A program made the position numbers and the translations under genes. Source: a virus. Taken from it: a stretch of 44,447 bases of DNA. The notes below the pieces were generated by a model. That model saw only the letters and a program-made list of their open reading frames with translations. It made no database searches and was not told the DNA's origin. Shown one piece after another: positions 4,427-39,411 of the stretch (positions within the stretch are counted from its first letter, which is position 1; each line of letters opens with the position of its first letter). The DNA lies in IMG/VR virus record IMGVR_UViG_3300000553_000080, positions 1-44,447 of that record; one strand, written 5' to 3'.

Positions 4427-4503
4427 CGCGGGGTAGATCAGTCAGGTAGATCGTTCGGCTCATAACCGAAAGGCCGTTGGTTCGAATCCAACCCCCGCAA
4501 CCA
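4427..4503 (+). tRNA. tRNA-fMet (anticodon CAT), initiator-like
   Basis: A complete 77-nt cloverleaf. Acceptor CGCGGGG (4427-4433) pairs with CCCCGCA (4493-4499) except for C1 and A72, the mismatch that marks bacterial initiators. The D stem GATC/GATC has the A11:U24 pair, another initiator mark. The anticodon loop CTCATAA (4459-4465) carries CAT at 4461-4463. T stem and loop: GTTGG-TTCGAAT-CCAAC. Discriminator A and an encoded CCA end at 4503. The anticodon stem TTCGG/CCGAA has a C29:G41 pair where E. coli has the first of three G:C pairs. It is transcribed with the late genes, 8 nt before the spike gene. Confidence 0.93.
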
Positions 4504-20320: not shown

Positions 20321-20333
20321 GAAAGTTTTATTG

Positions 20334-20362
20334 TTGACCGTATAGCGTATAGGCTATACGAT
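20334..20362 (+). promoter_or_regulatory. Promoter overlapped by perfect operator O2
   Basis: TTGACC (20334-20339), 17 nt, TACGAT (20357-20362). The spacer is almost filled by the perfect palindrome CGTATAGC-GTATAG-GCTATACG (20339-20360). A bound repressor would block polymerase. The predicted transcription start, near 20369, falls at the second ATG of the downstream gene. Confidence 0.65.
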
Positions 20363-30846: not shown

Positions 30847-30904
30847 AATAGCTTGTATCCTTTCGCCCGAAGGTATCGATGTCGGTTTCTGTTTGAGTTT
30901 TCAT
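30830..30904 (-). CDS. Possible 24-residue peptide
   Basis: ATG 30904 overlaps the AAA+ gene's stop (ATGA) and stops at 30830, inside the Cys-rich gene. It encodes MKTQTETDIDTFGRKDTSYY and four more residues. It may only serve to couple translation. Confidence 0.35.
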   Translation of the reverse strand: MKTQTETDIDTFGRKDTSYYENQM

Positions 30905-31542
30905 GCGAGTTTGGCGTCGAGGATGGATTGCGTGTCGAGAAGGGCGGCGCGGACATTCGTACCGCAGCCGACAACGATTTGGCTGATGGTCATTTTGTTC
31001 AGGCCAAACTTGGTGAGTAATGCGGTCAGTGCTTTTTCGTCCGGTGCCTTCACGTTGAATTGCTGGAGCCGGGTTTGAAACCGTTCGTGCAGGTCCGTGA
31101 TTTTCAGATTCGACGTGCCGATGATGGCAGTCCGTGTGGGTAGCTCGTCAAGGTAGGTGAGCGTCAAGTCTTGCGACTCCATAGACATGGTGTCTAGCTC
31201 GTTGACGATCTTAACGGACCACCCCGTCGCCATGTAGCGAGCTTGTTCCTGCCATTTGCGAACAAGGTTTAGATTCACGTTGCGGCCATTCACCGATTCG
31301 ACATTGAACGATTGGCCGTTGCGGATTGTTTCCCCGGTCAGTTGGGAGGCCAGGAATTCGGCCAGTTTGGTTTTGCCAATGCCGGGCGTGCCGGTGAGTA
31401 CATATTTGAGGGATGCGGTGCGGTCGGCCATCAGAGTCTTTGCTTTGGTGGCAAAGATGCGGGCGAGTTCACGGGCCGGGCCGATGAATTCATCTGGACT
31501 TGTAGGGCAGTATTGAGCAGGTTGTATTTGCTTCGGTTTCAT
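30901..31542 (-). CDS. Small AAA+ ATPase, clamp-loader/RuvB-like
   Basis: 213 residues. Walker A GTPGIGKTK (about 49-57), a Walker B region KIVNELDTM (about 110-118, with Asn-Glu where Asp-Glu is usual), sensor 1 IIGTSN and an Arg-finger-like FQTRLQQF. A small helical lid ends the protein. The motor would remodel DNA-bound or protein partners. It is second-to-last of the leftward AAA+ genes. Its leader has ACACCTGA (31550-31557), 7 nt before ATG. Confidence 0.7.
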   Translation of the reverse strand: MKPKQIQPAQYCPTSPDEFIGPARELARIFATKAKTLMADRTASLKYVLTGTPGIGKTKLAEFLASQLTGETIRNGQSFNVESVNGRNVNLNLVRKWQEQARYMATGWSVKIVNELDTMSMESQDLTLTYLDELPTRTAIIGTSNLKITDLHERFQTRLQQFNVKAPDEKALTALLTKFGLNKMTISQIVVGCGTNVRAALLDTQSILDAKLA

Positions 31543-31618: not shown

Positions 31619-33001
31619 TTATTTTTTGCCAGACTGGAGATTTGAGTATTTTATTTTCAAGTCTCTCCTCAGGTCGAGGGTCTTGCAGTCAGCCGGGAAC
31701 GTCACGCCTTCGGGTAACGTGGTGAGACTGCTCAGGTCGAGGGTCTTGCAGTTAGCCGGGAACGTCACGCCTTCGGGTAACGTGGTGAGACTGTTCAGGT
31801 AGAGGGTCTTGCAGTCAGCCGGGAACGTCACGCCTTCGGGTAACGTGGTGAGACTGCGCAGGTAGAGGGTCTTGCAGTCAGCCGGGAACGTCACGCCTTC
31901 GGGTAACGTGGTGAGACTGTTCAGGTCGAGGGTCTTGCAGTCAGCCGGGAACGTCACGCCTTCGGGTAACGTGGTGAGACTGTTCAGGTAGAGATACTCG
32001 CACTTAGCCGGGAACGTCACGCCTTCGGGTAACGTGGTGAGACTGTTCAGGTAGAGGTACTCGCACTTAGCCTGGAACGTCACGCCTTCGGGTAACGTGG
32101 TGAGACTGCTCAGGTCGAGGCACTCGCACTTAGCCGGGAACGTCACGCCTTCGGGTAACGTGGTGAGACTGCTCAGGTCGAGGGTCTTGCAGTCAGCCGG
32201 GAACGTCACGCCTTCGGGTAACGTGGTGAGACTGTTCAGGTAGAGATACTTGCAGTTAGCCGGGAACGTCACGCCTTCGGGTAACGTGGTGAGACTGCTC
32301 AGGTAGAGGCACTCGCACTTAGCCGGGAACGTCACGCCTTCGGGTAACGTGGTGAGACTGTTCAGGTAGAGGTGCTCGCACTTAGCCGGGAACGTCACGC
32401 CTTCGGGTAACGTGGTGAGACTGCTCAGGTAGAGGTACTCGCACTTAGCCGGGAACGTCACGCCTTCGGGTAACGTGGTGAGACTGTTCAGGTCGAGGGT
32501 CTTGCAGTCAGCCGGGAACGTCACGCCTTCGGGTAACGTGGTGAGACTGTTCAGGTAGAGGCACTCGCACTTAGCCTGGAACGTCACGCCTTCGGGTAAC
32601 GTGGTGAGACTGCTCAGGTAGAGGTACTCGCACTTAGCCGGGAACGTCACGCCTTCGGGTAACGTGGTGAGACTGCGCCACACGTCTGAATACTTTTCGT
32701 GGTCTGCAAAGTATGAATCAACTTTTTTTCCGGTCAATAAAGCCTGAAGCTTTTCATAGTGGTTGCGGATTTTATCTTTCAGCTTTTCTGGGCATTCGTC
32801 GTGATTGCGAATTAGTTTTGAATCCGATGGAAACGCGCCTTCGCCATTCCATTCTGCTTCAAATACGCGAATGATTTCATTCGGTTTATTGTCCCGCCAG
32901 TTAGCGGCCTTAATCATCCCTGAGTGGGAGTTAGTTGAGTTGTGGTAAAGCTCGGCTGTTTCTCCGAGCATCCGACCAATGATTGAATGGAACGTACACA
33001 T
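31619..33001 (-). CDS. Leucine-rich-repeat protein with 16 near-identical repeats
   Basis: 460 residues. Residues 1-109 are a unique domain (MCTFHSIIGRMLGETAELYH ... NWRDNKPNEIIRVFEAEWNG), a style I associate with phage proteins of unknown role. Residues 110-445 are sixteen 21-residue repeats of SLTTLPEGVTF-(P/Q)A-x-C-x-x-L-x-L-x. The last 15 residues are basic. Repeat variation is confined to six positions (12, 14, 16, 17, 19 and 21), the pattern of a binding surface. YopM/IpaH-type LRRs are similar in length. No signal peptide is present, so it acts in the cytoplasm or on the virion. Role unknown. Confidence 0.8.
   Translation of the reverse strand: MCTFHSIIGRMLGETAELYHNSTNSHSGMIKAANWRDNKPNEIIRVFEAEWNGEGAFPSDSKLIRNHDECPEKLKDKIRNHYEKLQALLTGKKVDSYFADHEKYSDVWRSLTTLPEGVTFPAKCEYLYLSSLTTLPEGVTFQAKCECLYLNSLTTLPEGVTFPADCKTLDLNSLTTLPEGVTFPAKCEYLYLSSLTTLPEGVTFPAKCEHLYLNSLTTLPEGVTFPAKCECLYLSSLTTLPEGVTFPANCKYLYLNSLTTLPEGVTFPADCKTLDLSSLTTLPEGVTFPAKCECLDLSSLTTLPEGVTFQAKCEYLYLNSLTTLPEGVTFPAKCEYLYLNSLTTLPEGVTFPADCKTLDLNSLTTLPEGVTFPADCKTLYLRSLTTLPEGVTFPADCKTLYLNSLTTLPEGVTFPANCKTLDLSSLTTLPEGVTFPADCKTLDLRRDLKIKYSNLQSGKK
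31667..32674 (-). repeat. 63-bp tandem repeat array, 16 copies
   Basis: 1008 bp of tandem units encoding the LRR region. Long stretches are identical in all copies (for example CGCCTTCGGGTAACGTGGTG), showing recent expansion or homogenisation. Copy number is likely unstable by recombination or slippage. It is not CRISPR: units are contiguous and coding. Confidence 0.95.
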
Positions 33002-33032: not shown

Positions 33033-33374
33033 CTATTTCTTTGAGGGTTTAGCTGACTTGATGGGTTTATCCGCTTTGGCGGCGGCGGCGATGACATCCA
33101 CTCGCCCGGAAGATGCCGGATTCGCTTTGTCGCCGCGCACTTCGGCGGCGAGTTGTTTAATCAGGTCTAGCTGTGACTTCAATTGAGTTTCGAGCTGGTT
33201 GATCTTGTTGGCGTAGATACCGACGATGGCGTCGTCAGGGATGGACCAACCGCCGGTAGCGAACAGGTCAGCGAGGACAAGGCCGAGCACTTCCTTGCCG
33301 GCATCGGTTTGCAGGGCGGCACAAAGGGCTTCATCGGTTACGGCGGGGACAACTGCATTTTTGATTTTTGACAT
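33033..33374 (-). CDS. Small helical protein with basic tail, unknown
   Basis: 113 residues. Helical N-terminal half (DEALCAALQTDAGKEVLGLV), a coiled-coil-like middle (NKINQLETQLKSQLDLIKQL) and a Lys/Ala/Pro-rich tail. Leader ACACCTGA at 33389-33396. Between the Ycf46-like ATPase and the LRR gene. Function unknown. Confidence 0.55.
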   Translation of the reverse strand: MSKIKNAVVPAVTDEALCAALQTDAGKEVLGLVLADLFATGGWSIPDDAIVGIYANKINQLETQLKSQLDLIKQLAAEVRGDKANPASSGRVDVIAAAAKADKPIKSAKPSKK

Positions 33375-33466: not shown

Positions 33467-34954
33467 TCAGGCGGCGAGCTTGCGTCCACCCCGTTTGATT
33501 TCTTCCGGCGCGCTGGCGGACATGGCGCGGTTGGCGAGGCGCTTGCGGCGTTTCTCAATCACGTCGGCCATCAGTACGGAGGTCGGCACGAACGTCTTGG
33601 CGACGGTGACTGCATCCTTCATGGACGGTTCCCGTTTGGCGTTGAAGGCGACCGTCATTGCCTTTATCCAGACTTGTTCAATCTGCCGGCCAGAGAAACC
33701 CTCAAGGGCGGCGGCGATTTCCGGCAGGTCGAATCCCTTGGCTTTGCGGCCATACTTTTCGATCTGTATTTTCAGGATGGCTTCGCGCTCCGCTTGGTTC
33801 GGCAGGTCAACGCTCCAGACATCGAGCCGGTCAATTAGCGGGTCGGGTAATCCGTCAATGTCATTCGCGGTGAAAACAAAGAAGATGTTTTCACCGTTGA
33901 ACTGCATGTCTTGCAGGATGGCCTTAATGACGCGGGCGGTCGTGCCGCCGTCCGTCTTGCCGGACGACTCGCTACCGGCGAACAATCCGTCCACTTCGTC
34001 AATCCACAGAACACAAGGCGCGACAGCCTTGGCCGTTGCAAACGCCGTCCGCCAGTTGCGCTCCGATTCACCGACGAGCGAGCCGAAGATTTTGCCGGCT
34101 TCAAGTTTCAAGAGCGGTAGGCCGAACACGGAGGCGCAGGCTTTGGCACACAGGCTCTTGCCCGTGCCGGCCTGTCCGCAGTAGAGTTGCCCGCGTGGCG
34201 TAGGCAGACCATATTCACGAGCGGCTTTGCTGAACAGGTTGCGCTTCATGTTAAGGTCGGCCTTTAAGATTTCTAAGCCGCCGATGTCGTCCAACGTGAT
34301 CTTGTCGGTGACGATTTCGAGCAACCCGTTTTTCTTGACGGTGTTGGATTTCTCACGGGCGACGATGGCCGGGAGAACGTCCTTTGCTTCGATGATGGAT
34401 AGGGCGTAGGCATTTTCCGCTTCGGTGGATGTCAGTCCGCCAGCGGCATCCAATACTTCATCGGTGTGACCGTTGAGGACTACGCCGTTTTCTTTGGCAA
34501 TCGTTTGCAGGATGACATGCAGTTGTTCCCGGTTGGGCAAGCGATGTTCAATGACGGTGATTTCTTTTTCGAGTTCGGGCGGCAGTTTTAACTGACAGCC
34601 GACGATGACGATAACCCGGTTGGAATTTTTGCCGATGGCTAGTTGATCGCGCAACTTGCGGAACATCAGCGGGTTGACATCCGCCAGCATCAGATGAAAG
34701 TCACGCAAGAGGATGATGGTTTTCTCACCCAGCTTCGGCAGCGAGTCGAGCATGGTGAAAGGGTCGTTTGAATCAGCGACTTCCGATTCGCCAGCCTGAT
34801 TCATAATCCCTTCGGTGATGGACCACCAATACAGTTTGAATTTTGTTTCGGTGGCGACGGCGAGCATTTCTTTTTCGACCCGTTGCTCTTCGTGGCTGAC
34901 GATGTACAGACCGGAGTAACCAGCGCGGACGTAGTTGGCAATTTGATGTTTCAT
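33467..34954 (-). CDS. Ycf46-like AAA+ ATPase
   Basis: 495 residues. The N-terminal domain (YVRAGYSGLYIVSHEEQRVE and FKLYWWSITEGI) matches the start of Ycf46 proteins of plastids and cyanobacteria. The C-terminal motor has IGGLEILKADL, Walker A GQAGTGKS (about 260-267), Walker B CVLWIDEVDG (about 312-321), sensor FVFTANDIDGLPDPLIDRLD with Arg finger, and a basic tail. Ycf46 is a FtsH-related ATPase without a protease domain, function poorly known. In this operon it sits near the DUF2997 and DUF1257/Ycf35 genes. Leader ATACCTGA at 34965-34972. Confidence 0.82.
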   Translation of the reverse strand: MKHQIANYVRAGYSGLYIVSHEEQRVEKEMLAVATETKFKLYWWSITEGIMNQAGESEVADSNDPFTMLDSLPKLGEKTIILLRDFHLMLADVNPLMFRKLRDQLAIGKNSNRVIVIVGCQLKLPPELEKEITVIEHRLPNREQLHVILQTIAKENGVVLNGHTDEVLDAAGGLTSTEAENAYALSIIEAKDVLPAIVAREKSNTVKKNGLLEIVTDKITLDDIGGLEILKADLNMKRNLFSKAAREYGLPTPRGQLYCGQAGTGKSLCAKACASVFGLPLLKLEAGKIFGSLVGESERNWRTAFATAKAVAPCVLWIDEVDGLFAGSESSGKTDGGTTARVIKAILQDMQFNGENIFFVFTANDIDGLPDPLIDRLDVWSVDLPNQAEREAILKIQIEKYGRKAKGFDLPEIAAALEGFSGRQIEQVWIKAMTVAFNAKREPSMKDAVTVAKTFVPTSVLMADVIEKRRKRLANRAMSASAPEEIKRGGRKLAA

Positions 34955-34978
34955 ATAATTTGGTTCAGGTATTGATTG

Positions 34979-35281
34979 TTAGTTGTTAGCTGCGTTGTTT
35001 TGGGAAGGCCCGACGAAGGAAATTCGCGGGTTGATGTGGTTGCATTTTTCGCCGCGCATGTTCTGGAAAAATTCCCATGCTTCGGCTTTGGTGGTATTCT
35101 CTAGGAAGTGAAGGACGATTGTGCCCCGGTCGTTGGTGCCAAGCAGGTAGGTTTCGGAATCTATCTGAATGATGCCGTCGCAAATAAGTTGCGGCGGGAC
35201 GGGTTTGAACACTTCCAAGGCTCCCATTTCACTGAGGGCGAATAGGTTTTGCGCTTGGTCCTTAGACGTGGTTACTTTCAC
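34979..35281 (-). CDS. Small protein, unknown
   Basis: 100 residues from GTG 35281, which overlaps the upstream gene's end; an ATG-initiated version (35353) would overlap it far more. Beta-rich core (ETYLLGTNDRGTIVLHFLEN) and a helix with EAWEFFQNMRGEKC. No family recognised. Confidence 0.5.
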   Translation of the reverse strand: MKVTTSKDQAQNLFALSEMGALEVFKPVPPQLICDGIIQIDSETYLLGTNDRGTIVLHFLENTTKAEAWEFFQNMRGEKCNHINPRISFVGPSQNNAANN

Positions 35282-35609
35282 GGGTGAGCCTTTCGTTGAG
35301 TGATTTGATTTCCCAATTGATACAGACGCGGCGGGACGGGTGAGTGAAGACAACGCGCTCCGGGCAGTTGGCCCATGTCACTTGCCACGGTCCCCGCCAA
35401 CGTCGCTGCCATTCGGCGATGCGTCCCCGTTCACCGAAGATTGCCCGAATTAGCCGGAAGGCGAATCGCTTGCCGGCGTGGCAAGGTAGGACGTGGGAGG
35501 CGCGGGTGGTGATGACCTCACCGAATCCATTAGTCAGGATGGCGGCAAGCGGCTCAGTGCGGATGCCGATAATGTTTCCATCCGGCGTGATACGAATAAG
35601 GGACTTCAT
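35262..35609 (-). CDS. Basic small protein, unknown
   Basis: 115 residues. Beta start (MKSLIRITPDGNIIGIRTEP), then an Arg-rich region (RIAEWQRRWRGPWQVTWANC). It overlaps both neighbours by a few bases (ATGA with DUF2997), so the five genes 36256-34979 are tightly coupled. Family not recognised. Confidence 0.5.
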   Translation of the reverse strand: MKSLIRITPDGNIIGIRTEPLAAILTNGFGEVITTRASHVLPCHAGKRFAFRLIRAIFGERGRIAEWQRRWRGPWQVTWANCPERVVFTHPSRRVCINWEIKSLNERLTRESNHV

Positions 35610-35803
35610 TGTCCACCCCCTGCCGTCTGCTTTGCTGTGGCCGACGTTTGCGCGGAATACTCCGGCTTGTTCACCCGTTTGATTTGGATGCCGAGAGACT
35701 TTTCAAGTTCAGACATTGCCTTGTCGCAAGCCGTACCTTTGAAGCCGACGCCTTCCATAGTGACCTCGCCGTCGCCGTTAATGGTGCAGATGATTTTTTT
35801 CAT
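35606..35803 (-). CDS. DUF2997-like protein
   Basis: 65 residues: MKKIICTINGDGEVTMEGVG, then FKGTACDKAMSELEKSLG. This KKI-x2-T-I-x2-DG...EG-x2-GF-G-x-C layout is DUF2997, a small protein usually encoded beside DUF1257/Ycf35 and Ycf46. Its biochemical role is unknown. The tail (EYSAQTSATAKQTAGGGQ) is flexible. Confidence 0.72.
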   Translation of the reverse strand: MKKIICTINGDGEVTMEGVGFKGTACDKAMSELEKSLGIQIKRVNKPEYSAQTSATAKQTAGGGQ

Positions 35804-35806
35804 AAT

Positions 35807-36256
35807 TCAGAGGGAAACGATTTCGAGTTTGATGTCGCCGTTGGTTTGATGCTGGCGATTTACGAGCCAACCTTTTTTCTTGGACTCCATTGTGAGTTTG
35901 TGGGCGGAGTAGATTTGCAGGAACTTCTGGCCGTTGGTGCCGATGACTTGCTGAATCTGTCGGCCTTGTCCGTAGAAATCGAAGTACAGTTTGTACCCGC
36001 CGGTTTCTGGATTCTGGAGCAAGCCGATGTCGTAACCGCAGCCGGGGACTTCGATGGCGTGGTCACTGGTGCCGTATTGGTCAGGCTTGATGCCGAGTTT
36101 GTAGGCCGCGTTGTCGCGGTCGTAATCGTCCACCCAACGGCCAAACCAGCGGATTGTTTTCTGATTCTCTTTGAACTTCAAACCGAGTTCGAGGCAGGCG
36201 GCTTTGACGGCGGCCAGATCGCGCAACTCAGCTTTGATGGATACAACGTGTGACAT
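35807..36256 (-). CDS. DUF1257 / Ycf35-like protein
   Basis: 149 residues. It begins MSHVVSIKAELRDLAAVKAA, continues CLELGLKFKE, and has IEVPGCGYDIGLLQNPETGG, YKLYFDFYGQG and a terminal QTNGDIKLEIV. These match Ycf35 (DUF1257: MSHF-x-T-I-K-x-Q-I-x-D, YDIGF, DGSIRL). Ycf35 is conserved in plastids and cyanobacteria with no settled function. Leader ACACCTGA at 36263-36270, 6 nt before ATG. Confidence 0.75.
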   Translation of the reverse strand: MSHVVSIKAELRDLAAVKAACLELGLKFKENQKTIRWFGRWVDDYDRDNAAYKLGIKPDQYGTSDHAIEVPGCGYDIGLLQNPETGGYKLYFDFYGQGRQIQQVIGTNGQKFLQIYSAHKLTMESKKKGWLVNRQHQTNGDIKLEIVSL

Positions 36257-36276
36257 ATTTTTTCAGGTGTTAATGG

Positions 36277-36816
36277 TTAAAGGACGTTTGGATTTTTAAT
36301 TTTCAGGAGGTTAGAAGTAAGACCGCATTCGTAGCGGGTGATTTTCGGATTGCGAATCATAATGCCTTCACCGCCGCATTGCAGGGTCATGGCAACCGCT
36401 GTTTGAAGTTGGGCGATGGATTCAACCACCCAACCATTTACTGTATGAGCTACCGGGCAGTTGTGGTTTATCATCGCGGCAGTTTCGATGCGTTGTGCCC
36501 AATTGCCGAATGCTTGGGGCACGTCGTAAATCATAAACATCGGTTCGATGCCTTTCGGCCAGTGCCCATATTGACAGAGCTTGCGGGCGGCTTCCTGTCC
36601 ACCGCGCCCGCAGTAGATACCACCGTCCAACTCAATGCCTTTGGGCATTTGTTTGGTGAAGGATGCGGGCAACTTGGGTTGCTTGCCGCCGCGTGTCCAG
36701 AATTTGGAACCATCCCAATAACAGCGGATGTCCCAAAGTTTTTCCGATGCGTACCAACCCACGGGGTCAACAGCCCGCGTGTAATCGGTGCCGAGTGTCA
36801 TTTGTTTCTCGTTCAT
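36277..36816 (-). CDS. DNA-ligase-like nucleotidyltransferase domain without OB fold
   Basis: 179 residues from ATG 36816; a longer frame to 36972 would overlap the upstream gene. The layout follows LigE-type ATP-dependent ligases: motif I SEKLWDIRCYWDG (catalytic Lys kept, but K-x-D-G is K-L-W-D), motif III ELDGGIYCGRG (Gly where DGEL has Glu), motif IV EGIMIRNP and motif V NLLKIKNP at the very end. The protein stops after motif V, so the OB domain is absent. It may be inactive, a non-canonical nucleotidyltransferase, or an enzyme completed by a partner. Confidence 0.65.
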   Translation of the reverse strand: MNEKQMTLGTDYTRAVDPVGWYASEKLWDIRCYWDGSKFWTRGGKQPKLPASFTKQMPKGIELDGGIYCGRGGQEAARKLCQYGHWPKGIEPMFMIYDVPQAFGNWAQRIETAAMINHNCPVAHTVNGWVVESIAQLQTAVAMTLQCGGEGIMIRNPKITRYECGLTSNLLKIKNPNVL

Positions 36817-36817
36817 A

Positions 36818-37675
36818 TTAGTTCGTGGAGAGTTTGCGTTTGCCGAGAGAGCCGAAGCGGTTGAGGATTTCAGCCGCCTTTTCGGCGACAACCTTGCGCT
36901 CCACTTTGTTTTCCCGCAGAACAGCCACGTCCAAACTGGCGAGGGTTGACTGAATGACGGTGGCGGCTTCATTCATTTTCTTATCCCCGGTGATGTTCAA
37001 GAGCGGAATCATGCTGGCCATTTCCTTCACGTTATCTACGAGGGTGTCGCGGAAAATGGCGTCGGGGCTGGCAAGTCTTTCCGCCATCAGTTGCACGGGC
37101 TTGATTAACCGCTCCCATGTATCGGCAACGGCGTCGCCAAGTTTCTTTTCGGTCAGGGCTTCGAGGCCGGCACCATAAAGCGTTTTCATGTCCGAACTGA
37201 AATGGTCCGGCTTGGGGACGGGGAAGTATTCGCGGGCGATGCCGAACATACAGCGACAGGTGGCCCACTCTGGATAATCCGATTCGTCAAAGGTGCTGGC
37301 GTGCATCACTTTGGCGTGTTCAATCCAATTCGGGTATTGGGTGCCGAACTCGTCAACGAGCTTCATATATTCGGAATAGAAATAATCCATCTTGGCGTCG
37401 TATTCGGGACGGGCCTTGCCGGATAGCAGGCGGGAACCTTCCTCCCACGGCGAAGTGAAGTTGTAATGATAGCCGCGAATGAGGGTGGCATATTCGCGGA
37501 TGGCTTTGAGCGATTCGTCAGGCAGTTTGTATTTAACCCACTTGCCGGCCCCCTGCCCCAACGCTTTGCGCATCTTGACATCATCGGTGATGGCGCGATC
37601 TTGGCGCTGATTGGAGAACATACTAATGGAGAGCCGCACGACGACGGCGTTGATGTTGTTGCTGTTATTTTTCAT
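36818..37675 (-). CDS. DUF3150-like protein
   Basis: 285 residues. VVVRLSISMFSNQRQDRAIT, then an Ala/Gly/Lys stretch, NFTSPWEEGSRLLSG and YDAKMDYFYSEYMKLVDEFG match DUF3150 (VxLxLSIxxWxAxKxD...TxPWxDxGxRLL...). In other phages DUF3150 genes lie next to AAA+ (MoxR/CobS-type) genes (from memory), consistent with the two AAA+ genes here. The C-terminus is helical and basic. It ends 1 nt before the ligase-like start region. Confidence 0.6.
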   Translation of the reverse strand: MKNNSNNINAVVVRLSISMFSNQRQDRAITDDVKMRKALGQGAGKWVKYKLPDESLKAIREYATLIRGYHYNFTSPWEEGSRLLSGKARPEYDAKMDYFYSEYMKLVDEFGTQYPNWIEHAKVMHASTFDESDYPEWATCRCMFGIAREYFPVPKPDHFSSDMKTLYGAGLEALTEKKLGDAVADTWERLIKPVQLMAERLASPDAIFRDTLVDNVKEMASMIPLLNITGDKKMNEAATVIQSTLASLDVAVLRENKVERKVVAEKAAEILNRFGSLGKRKLSTN

Positions 37676-37705: not shown

Positions 37706-38122
37706 TCAGTTGTTCATTACATTTACAAATCCCCCCCGGCGGGCAATCAGTGCGGCGGCGGCGGCTACGTCCACCCCCCGGCGGGTGGTAGCGGTGATGT
37801 GGCTGGTGATGTCGGCGGCGGTGATTCCGTGATTGATGTAGCCGGCGACTTTGGCGGCAAACAGTTTCCAACTGCGATTGCCGCGTGATGAATTGCACTT
37901 GTGGCAGCAGGTAACTAAATTGCATGGCTCGTTGCTGCCGCCTTTGCTGTGAGGTTTCAGATGGTCCAATGTCAGCTTGGCATCATCTTCGATACCGTTG
38001 CCGCAGTAGCAGCAGGCCAGTCCATCCCGGAGATAAATGGCGAGCCGTTTTTCTTTGCGAATCCAGTTCATACCTTGTCCTTGTCCGTTTGATTTGTGGT
38101 GGCGGTCGTTAATCGTTTTCAT
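37706..38122 (-). CDS. HNH endonuclease
   Basis: 138 residues. A zinc-bound HNH core: C-x2-C (CCYC, 37-40), LDHLKPHSKGGS (52-63), N-L-V-x-C and C-x2-C (HKCNSSRG, to about 81). The C-terminal helix pair is extra. First gene of the leftward operon and not next to terminase, so it is more likely a free-standing or homing-type nuclease than a packaging HNH. Its leader contains TCACCTGA (38126-38133), 3 nt before ATG. Confidence 0.82.
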   Translation of the reverse strand: MKTINDRHHKSNGQGQGMNWIRKEKRLAIYLRDGLACCYCGNGIEDDAKLTLDHLKPHSKGGSNEPCNLVTCCHKCNSSRGNRSWKLFAAKVAGYINHGITAADITSHITATTRRGVDVAAAAALIARRGGFVNVMNN

Positions 38123-38526: not shown

Positions 38527-38560
38527 TTGATAATGTATAGCCATTGCGCTATACAGTCAA
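38527..38560. promoter_or_regulatory. Divergent promoters sharing perfect operator O3
   Basis: Rightward: TTGATA (38527-38532), 17 nt, TATACA (38550-38555). Leftward: TTGACT (38560-38555), 17 nt, TACATT (38537-38532). Both are covered by TGTATAGC-CATTGC-GCTATACA (38534-38555). The leftward promoter has the same layout as that at 20334-20362. One repressor could shut off the leftward operon and the rightward gene at 38674. Confidence 0.75.
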
Positions 38561-38656
38561 CATCTTTCGGCAATTAATTCCGGTGTGTATTCCCCAATGA
38601 ATACGGTGGTGTTGTGATATTTTATTTTGGTTTTGGCTTGATACGCTAGGCTCGGC

Positions 38657-38664
38657 GCTATACA
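38657..38664 (+). promoter_or_regulatory. Operator half-site before the PP-loop gene
   Basis: GCTATACA, an exact half of O3, ends 9 nt before ATG 38674. An upstream TTGATA (38638-38643) would pair with TATACA at only 15 nt, so a promoter here would be weak. The left half-site is absent. Confidence 0.4.
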
Positions 38665-38673
38665 CTTAACGAA

Positions 38674-39411
38674 ATGGAATTGAAACCACAATTTGAACGG
38701 GTCGTATTTCCCGGTGTCGAAAACTCGGAAAAGGTGATGGAGCGGATTGCCGCAACGACGGACACGGTGATTCTTTCGTTCTCTGCCGGGAAAGATTCAA
38801 TCGCGGCATGGCTGGCACTCCGGCCCTACTTCAAGCGAATTGTCCCGTACTTCCTATACATCGTGCCAGACTTGGAATTTGTCGAAAACTCGCTGCGGTA
38901 TTACGAAGACTTTTTCGAGACACGGATTTATAGACTGCCGCATCATGGACTTTGGCGGATGCTGCGCGGCCTGACATTCCAGCCGCCGGGTAGGATTTCG
39001 ACAATTGAATCATTCGAGTTGGGGGATTTGGACTATGAAGAGCTACGCGACATGGTTTGCGTGACGGCGGACATTCCCCTCCGAACTTTTGACGCCAAGG
39101 GAATCAGGGCCGCAGATTCGATCATGCGCCGGTCCAACTTCAAGCTGCGTGGTGGTATCAATTGGAATCGGAATTTCTTTTATCCTGTTTGGGACTGGCG
39201 CAAAGCGGAATTGGTTCACCGGATAAAAGAGTCGGGCGCTTTGATGCCGATTGACTACCAACTTTTCGGACGGAGTTTTGACGGAGTTGATTTCCGTTTT
39301 CTCTATCCGGTCAAACAACACTTTCCAGATGACTACGCGAAGATTCTGGAATTTTTCCCCCTCGCGGAACTGGAATTGAAACGATACGAATATGCGAAAA
39401 CAACCTACTAG
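38674..39411 (+). CDS. PP-loop ATPase, PAPS-reductase-like
   Basis: 245 residues. The PP-loop SFSAGKDSIAAW begins at residue 35, followed by a Rossmann-like order of strands (VPYFLYIVPDLEFVENSLRY) and a conserved-looking FYPVWDW region typical of the phosphoadenosine phosphosulfate reductase family. Such phage proteins activate substrates by adenylation; actual substrates are unknown and may relate to sulfur chemistry or nucleic-acid modification. First gene of the rightward late region, under O3. It overlaps the next gene by 20 nt. Confidence 0.75.
   Translation: MELKPQFERVVFPGVENSEKVMERIAATTDTVILSFSAGKDSIAAWLALRPYFKRIVPYFLYIVPDLEFVENSLRYYEDFFETRIYRLPHHGLWRMLRGLTFQPPGRISTIESFELGDLDYEELRDMVCVTADIPLRTFDAKGIRAADSIMRRSNFKLRGGINWNRNFFYPVWDWRKAELVHRIKESGALMPIDYQLFGRSFDGVDFRFLYPVKQHFPDDYAKILEFFPLAELELKRYEYAKTTY

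Follow-up and report, generated by a model that had tools for sequence, protein, structure and literature searches.

The window analysed here, the whole of a 44.4-kb viral contig (IMG/VR record IMGVR_UViG_3300000553_000080, positions 1 to 44,447), carries a leftward operon in which a Ycf46-like AAA+ ATPase is encoded close to a DUF1257/Ycf35 protein and a DUF2997 protein. Because many unrelated phages, bacteria, and archaea have this set too, we conclude that this trio is a real and widespread protein machine that is apparently undescribed. Our preferred reading, to which we give a probability of about 0.4, is that the ATPase is a dedicated remodeller with DUF1257 and DUF2997 as its cofactor pair, and that in the branch to which the window belongs it acts on a DNA replication or repair complex. 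Ycf46, Ycf35, and DUF2997 have for a long time had the status of orphan families, familiar chiefly from conserved reading frames of plastids and cyanobacteria. Their linkage in a single module of phages and many bacteria brings these three unknowns together as one machine open to testing, whose cysteine is invariant and whose Fe-S or DNA-metabolism partners can be exchanged. The observations that are new here are the invariant cysteine of DUF2997, the Met-Ser start of DUF1257, and the association of DUF2997 with radical S-adenosylmethionine (radical-SAM) genes at some loci and of the DUF2997-DUF1257 pair with ferredoxin at cyanobacterial ones. The three core genes of the window are as follows.

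33467..34954, minus strand: Ycf46-like AAA+ ATPase, 495 residues (Pfam AAA, 1.6e-25; PHROG 8638 over the full length, 2.9e-104)
35606..35803, minus strand: DUF2997 (PF11211), 65 residues (Pfam, 3.1e-10; 40.2 bits against a curated cut-off of 24.1)
35807..36256, minus strand: DUF1257/Ycf35 family (PF06868), 149 residues (single-sequence E value, 3.3e-4)

Recurrence of the trio in phages and cells

A search of viral contigs with the ATPase gave 50 loci, in most of which iterated profiles find DUF1257 and DUF2997 near the ATPase. Once ATPases at least 80% identical had been removed, 42 non-redundant viral loci remained, 29 of which hold both families, with DUF2997 within 3 kb of the ATPase in 28 and DUF1257 in 29. 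The viral search relied on exact peptide patterns and cannot yield prevalence, the loci are limited stretches, so that a partner absent from a locus is not thereby absent from the genome, and in GC-rich loci the open reading frames (ORFs) were called mechanically. Among the non-redundant cellular loci, one or both of the small families accompany the ATPase in 34 of 60. Because these viral and cellular loci had been selected by the ATPase, a search anchored on DUF2997 was used as well; it found matches in 34 of 59 cyanobacterial and 9 of 195 Verrucomicrobiota genomes, and all 26 loci fetched from these two groups have DUF1257 or the ATPase within about 1.5 kb (one Verrucomicrobiota genome in this set, G002, was itself reached via the ATPase). 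The trio also occurs in Verrucomicrobiota in the gene order of the window, in other bacteria, and in archaea.

Cultured phages carry the module too. DUF1257 is present in Pseudomonas phages SM1/PaMx31, Rhizobium phages RHph_I4 and L338C, and Aeromonas phage HJ05, and the whole trio was found in all three whose neighbourhoods were read (SM1, RHph_I4, and HJ05), which makes the module testable by simple gene deletion. In SM1 and RHph_I4, the trio lies a few genes upstream of the DnaB helicase and DNA polymerase I. Only one DUF1257 query (from locus L003) found homologues in named phages, while tblastn with the DUF1257 of the window and with two further DUF1257 queries gave no match there. An earlier, sequence-only examination of this DNA had made its reading depend on recurrence of the gene set in related phages, and the 29 viral loci together with the cultured phages show that the set recurs in related and unrelated phages alike. 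Searches of the literature available to us found no phage paper on DUF1257, DUF2997, Ycf46, or DUF3150.

The three core proteins

The N-terminal AAA half of the ATPase is degenerate and lacks a Walker A motif, while its C-terminal AAA domain is predicted to be active from its motifs (Walker A, G260-x-x-G-x-G-K266; Walker B, D319-E320; sensor, N364), which are invariant across 29 diverse members of the family. The nearest solved relatives are the second-tier AAA domains of Cdc48/p97 and Rix7, and these offer a working model for remodelling; the ATPase motifs would be consistent with Cdc48-class remodelling by a hexamer. Cdc48/p97 and Rix7 use other adaptors and are not known to have DUF1257 or DUF2997. 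The window ATPase shares the full-length, two-tier architecture of cyanobacterial and plastid Ycf46, with a degenerate first tier and a length of about 500 residues, and the two can be aligned over nearly their full length. In a tree built by a quick method, with Shimodaira-Hasegawa-like approximate likelihood ratio (SH-aLRT) support only and no bootstrap, the window falls inside a clade with support 99 whose 25 rows come from phages, Verrucomicrobiota, and, in one case, a Planctomycetota locus; the cyanobacterial Ycf46 rows are outside this clade and do not group with the window as orthologues. The description of the protein as Ycf46-like is therefore sound for superfamily and architecture but does not extend to the cyanobacterial clade, and judged by its sequence the window ATPase is a member of the phage/Verrucomicrobiota clade that travels with DUF3150 and the small protein family u115.

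In DUF2997, a comparison of 39 phage, bacterial, archaeal, and cyanobacterial sequences leaves Cys26 as the sole invariant position, with three glycines kept in more than 90%; the cysteine is also invariant among 48 sequences of less than 70% identity. A low-confidence model puts Cys26 near the helix start of a beta-beta-alpha-beta unit and is too uncertain for fold comparison. The GxxC spacing, together with a 32-residue local fold match between DUF1257 and a SirA-like protein, had raised the idea of a TusA-like sulfur carrier, and this homology was rejected by profile-profile alignment (hhalign probability, 0.4%). ORFs of 233 to 235 residues that end in DUF2997 (loci L088 and L094) looked like fusions, but their N-terminal parts resemble low-complexity out-of-frame readings and they were likewise discarded.

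The DUF1257 protein of the window, taken alone, scores just below the Pfam cut-off (21.3 versus 22.2 bits), while relatives in its profile lie above the cut-off and reach 3.9e-9, and its homologue in Rhizobium phage RHph_I4 is already annotated as DUF1257. All 36 aligned members begin with Met-Ser, with longer frames keeping MSH internally, which suggests that the N terminus is functionally fixed; the window protein has the MS(H) start and adjoins DUF2997, as expected of a DUF1257/Ycf35 protein. Its predicted model is confident (predicted local distance difference test score [pLDDT], 87.6; predicted template modelling score [pTM], 0.83), yet the best match in the PDB reaches only an E value of 0.12, which leaves no convincing solved fold, and the single strong viral match, A0A7S5REL3 (2.3e-10), is unnamed in the tables searched. 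At the sequence level, DUF1257, DUF2997, and DUF3150 gave no credible match to solved structures. The core genes are under purifying selection, with ratios of nonsynonymous to synonymous substitution (dN/dS) of about 0.11 to 0.26 for the ATPase, DUF1257, DUF2997, and DUF3150.

Partner genes and possible functions

Our results lead us to propose that the cluster encodes an ATP-driven protein-remodelling machine. The Ycf46-like protein would be a Cdc48/Rix7-class AAA+ ATPase, presumably hexameric, in which the second of two tiers is live and the first is dead, and it would join DUF1257 and DUF2997 in one complex, where the latter two may form or present the substrate-binding end. The conserved DUF2997 cysteine would then be a reactive or a metal- or redox-sensitive residue needed for function. 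The module as a whole might be a portable core with exchangeable partners, which in some branches would be a 4Fe-4S protein (NrdG-like radical-SAM protein or ferredoxin) and in the branch of the window would be DUF3150 and u115, joined here by a ligase-like protein and an HNH nuclease. In this last branch, the machine would most likely load, dismantle, or recycle a DNA replication or repair complex early in infection.

The weakest step of this proposal is the substrate, which we infer from the gene neighbourhood. The window phage offers a context of DNA metabolism, with HNH, ligase-like, clamp-loader-like, DnaB, exonuclease VIII, and Holliday-junction-resolvase-like proteins. The original prediction of a nucleic-acid or host-takeover machine fits this setting in its first half, as far as a role can be read from neighbours; host takeover gains no support from our results. 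Several points weigh against our proposal. Replication genes are common in phage early regions, so that proximity is weak evidence, and the cyanobacterial members suggest a photosynthetic or redox function rather than one on DNA. In addition, 11 of the 42 viral AAA relatives lack both DUF1257 and DUF2997 within the stretch read, and the ligase-like gene is missing from most relatives and, in the window, encodes an altered motif I and shows weaker constraint (dN/dS, 0.47).

Partner sets differ between branches. The order DUF3150-DUF1257-DUF2997-u115-ATPase is common to Verrucomicrobiota and the phages near the window. The Verrucomicrobiota blocks (L061, L064, L107, and others), whose ATPases form a neighbouring clade, differ from the window in that no ligase-like gene or u124 was detected in them and in that some loci have, upstream, genes for a PD-(D/E)XK nuclease (9.5e-28) and for a beta-clamp-like protein whose match (1.4e-5) falls just short of the cut-off. 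Elsewhere on the ATPase tree, an NrdG/PflA-like radical-SAM 4Fe-4S protein (Pfam Fer4_12, 2.6e-36) is the partner that recurs. It is present in 31 of 102 loci, all 31 of which have DUF2997 (Fisher p, 3e-10, with the kinship of loci ignored), and in many its gene is placed between those of DUF2997 and DUF1257 or immediately beside them. In cyanobacteria, the DUF2997-DUF1257 pair is followed by a ferredoxin gene in 10 of 10 loci read, as in Synechocystis gene cluster g, duf2997-ycf35-fed7 (PMC4284462), which resembles the window in the adjacency of DUF2997 and DUF1257 and differs from it in having the ferredoxin in place of the ATPase, DUF3150, and u115. The ATPase gene is usually not near ycf35 and DUF2997 in the cyanobacterial loci examined. 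That Ycf46, Ycf35, and DUF2997 occur together in cyanobacteria, as had been supposed, consequently holds for the latter two, in the company of ferredoxin, and generally not for the ATPase.

These partners, and the invariance of the cysteine, are what the main rival draws on, namely a thiol or radical function centred on DUF2997. Here, DUF2997 would be a small carrier whose cysteine is reduced, persulfidated, or made radical by the adjacent ferredoxin or NrdG-like protein, with DUF1257 as scaffold and the ATPase separating the partners, and phages without an Fe-S gene would borrow that of the host. The radical-SAM profile detected no gene in loci of the window's clade, however, and neither the failed TusA comparison nor the low-confidence DUF2997 model lends this chemistry support; we regard it as possible but somewhat unlikely.

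Another explanation is that the module belongs to anti-phage systems in bacteria and is used by phages as counter-defence or to exclude competitors. In cellular loci, a superfamily 1 (SF1) helicase matching Mokosh MkoA (9e-81) stands between the ATPase and DUF2997/DUF1257, other clusters contain Hsp70-like genes or, read by eye, a kinase-AAA gene with candidate reverse transcriptase and FGE-like genes, and the spread is patchy, as the low count of DUF2997 in Verrucomicrobiota illustrates. The FtsH-ternary conflict systems (Kaur et al. 2020, PMC7159879) also have an AAA+ protein with a dead first and a live second tier and, in some cases, a radical-SAM effector, and they may involve the same ATPase superfamily. 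They are defined by a MoxR-vWA pair, though, and scanning the operon proteins against Pfam and PHROG matched neither MoxR nor vWA; that paper was also not among the results of full-text searches for DUF1257 and DUF2997. Moreover, the cyanobacterial copies were seen outside conflict-like clusters, and PADLOC gave only generic AAA matches for the phage ATPase (IetA, 3e-23) and nothing for DUF1257, DUF2997, or DUF3150; we consider a conflict role unlikely.

A broader scenario, which we offer as speculation with long odds, treats the three families as one ancient, portable machine common to phages, bacteria, archaea, and plastids. In it, a 4Fe-4S partner would charge DUF2997, acting as a carrier through its cysteine or as a radical protein, and the ATPase would recycle DUF2997; phages would have adapted the machine to DNA replication by replacing the Fe-S partner with DUF3150 and u115. 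A chaperone for virion assembly, as proposed for jumbo-phage MoxR-vWA pairs, is highly improbable, for although an assembly role in phages has been suggested for other classes of AAA+ chaperone (PMC7824862), the operon lies on the strand opposite to the structural genes of the window and the module of cultured phages sits near replication genes.

Some of the loci read are of interest in their own right. A Methanococcoides locus (L098:9983-19773) holds a complete cluster of ATPase, MkoA-like SF1 helicase, c14, c15, DUF2997, DUF1257, and radical-SAM genes, with similar clusters in L103, L104, and L089, and this type is a possible undescribed variant of Mokosh-like defence. DUF2997, the Ycf46-like ATPase, and a kinase-AAA protein occur together in L093, L075, and L076; in L093 they are accompanied by FGE-like genes and by a candidate reverse transcriptase, which may belong to a diversity-generating retroelement. 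In L015 and related large phages, a ThiF/E1-like gene (L015:2591-5077; Pfam ThiF, 1.2e-19) lies about 4 kb upstream of the ATPase among neighbours of unknown family and is possibly part of a ubiquitin-like conjugation set.

Operon layout and neighbouring genes

The window encodes an integrase, terminase, portal, and head protease along with DnaB helicase and exonuclease VIII-like and Holliday-junction-resolvase-like proteins, and because of this gene content the phage is probably temperate. Its minus-strand run extends from 38122 down to about 30901, in the order HNH, DUF3150-family, ligase-like, DUF1257, DUF2997, u115, u124, Ycf46-like ATPase, small protein, repeat protein, and clamp-loader-like AAA+; the genes 3' of the ATPase would be on the same transcript. 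Besides the trio, its features are the following.

38532..38670: divergent intergenic region with a weak sigma-70-like site and a 14-nt operator-like motif present twice
37706..38122, minus strand: HNH endonuclease, first operon gene (1.3e-19)
36818..37675, minus strand: DUF3150-family protein, 285 residues, assigned via relatives
36277..36816, minus strand: ligase-like nucleotidyltransferase, adenylation domain only (PRK09125, 1.4e-31; PHROG 114, 7.5e-12)
35262..35609, minus strand: u115 family small protein, next to DUF2997, with a PSRxxCxxWE motif
34979..35353, minus strand: u124 small protein, start codon uncertain, conserved in the nearest phages only
33033..33374, minus strand: small protein 3' of the ATPase, probable operon member
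30901..31542, minus strand: clamp-loader-like AAA+ protein (3.4e-12), probable operon member

The earlier examination had placed the cluster correctly at 33467-37675 and named its families from sequence alone in agreement with our profile searches (for DUF1257 and DUF3150, clearly so via relatives), and both the adjacent HNH nuclease and the second AAA+ ATPase that it noted are present. It had also described several overlaps of 1 to 20 nt and three small unknown proteins within those limits; we find one clear overlap, of 4 nt between DUF2997 and u115, with most other neighbours 1 to 30 nt apart, and two small proteins.

The DUF3150 protein of the window has no family match by itself, while 13 of 20 aligned members match PF11348 (best, 1.2e-27). 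The PSRxxCxxWE motif of u115 is common to phage and Verrucomicrobiota relatives. The ligase-like protein does have the adenylation domain expected of a nucleotidyltransferase, but it is truncated, stopping after motif V without the C-terminal OB domain of a ligase; its motif I keeps the lysine with the DG of KxDG replaced (KLWD), while the relative in L006 has the canonical motif. Its open frame begins at 36972, and the ATG at 36816 is the likelier start.

Upstream of the operon, the weak sigma-70-like site (38560-38532, minus strand) is overlapped by the operator-like motif, GCTATACASTYAAC, which has 4 matches in the window at up to 2 mismatches versus 0.27 expected. Copies lie at 20333-20346 (minus), 38548-38561 (plus), and 38657-38670 (plus), the latter two in the divergent intergenic region, and all are candidate repressor sites by their sequence. 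The repressed early promoter proposed previously is plausible in view of this arrangement. Divergent from the operon, 38674-39411 (plus strand) encodes a PAPS-reductase-like protein, which was set aside as a possible Fe-S partner because it has only one cysteine.

Between the ATPase and the clamp-loader-like gene, 31619-33001 (minus strand) encodes a 460-residue protein; 16 near-identical 63-bp units (93% match), which read as 21-residue repeats of the LTTLPEGVTF type resembling leucine-rich repeats, account for most of it. These repeats are likely prone to copy-number change. Among the structural genes, the phage carries a tRNA-Met(CAT) at 4427-4503 (plus strand).

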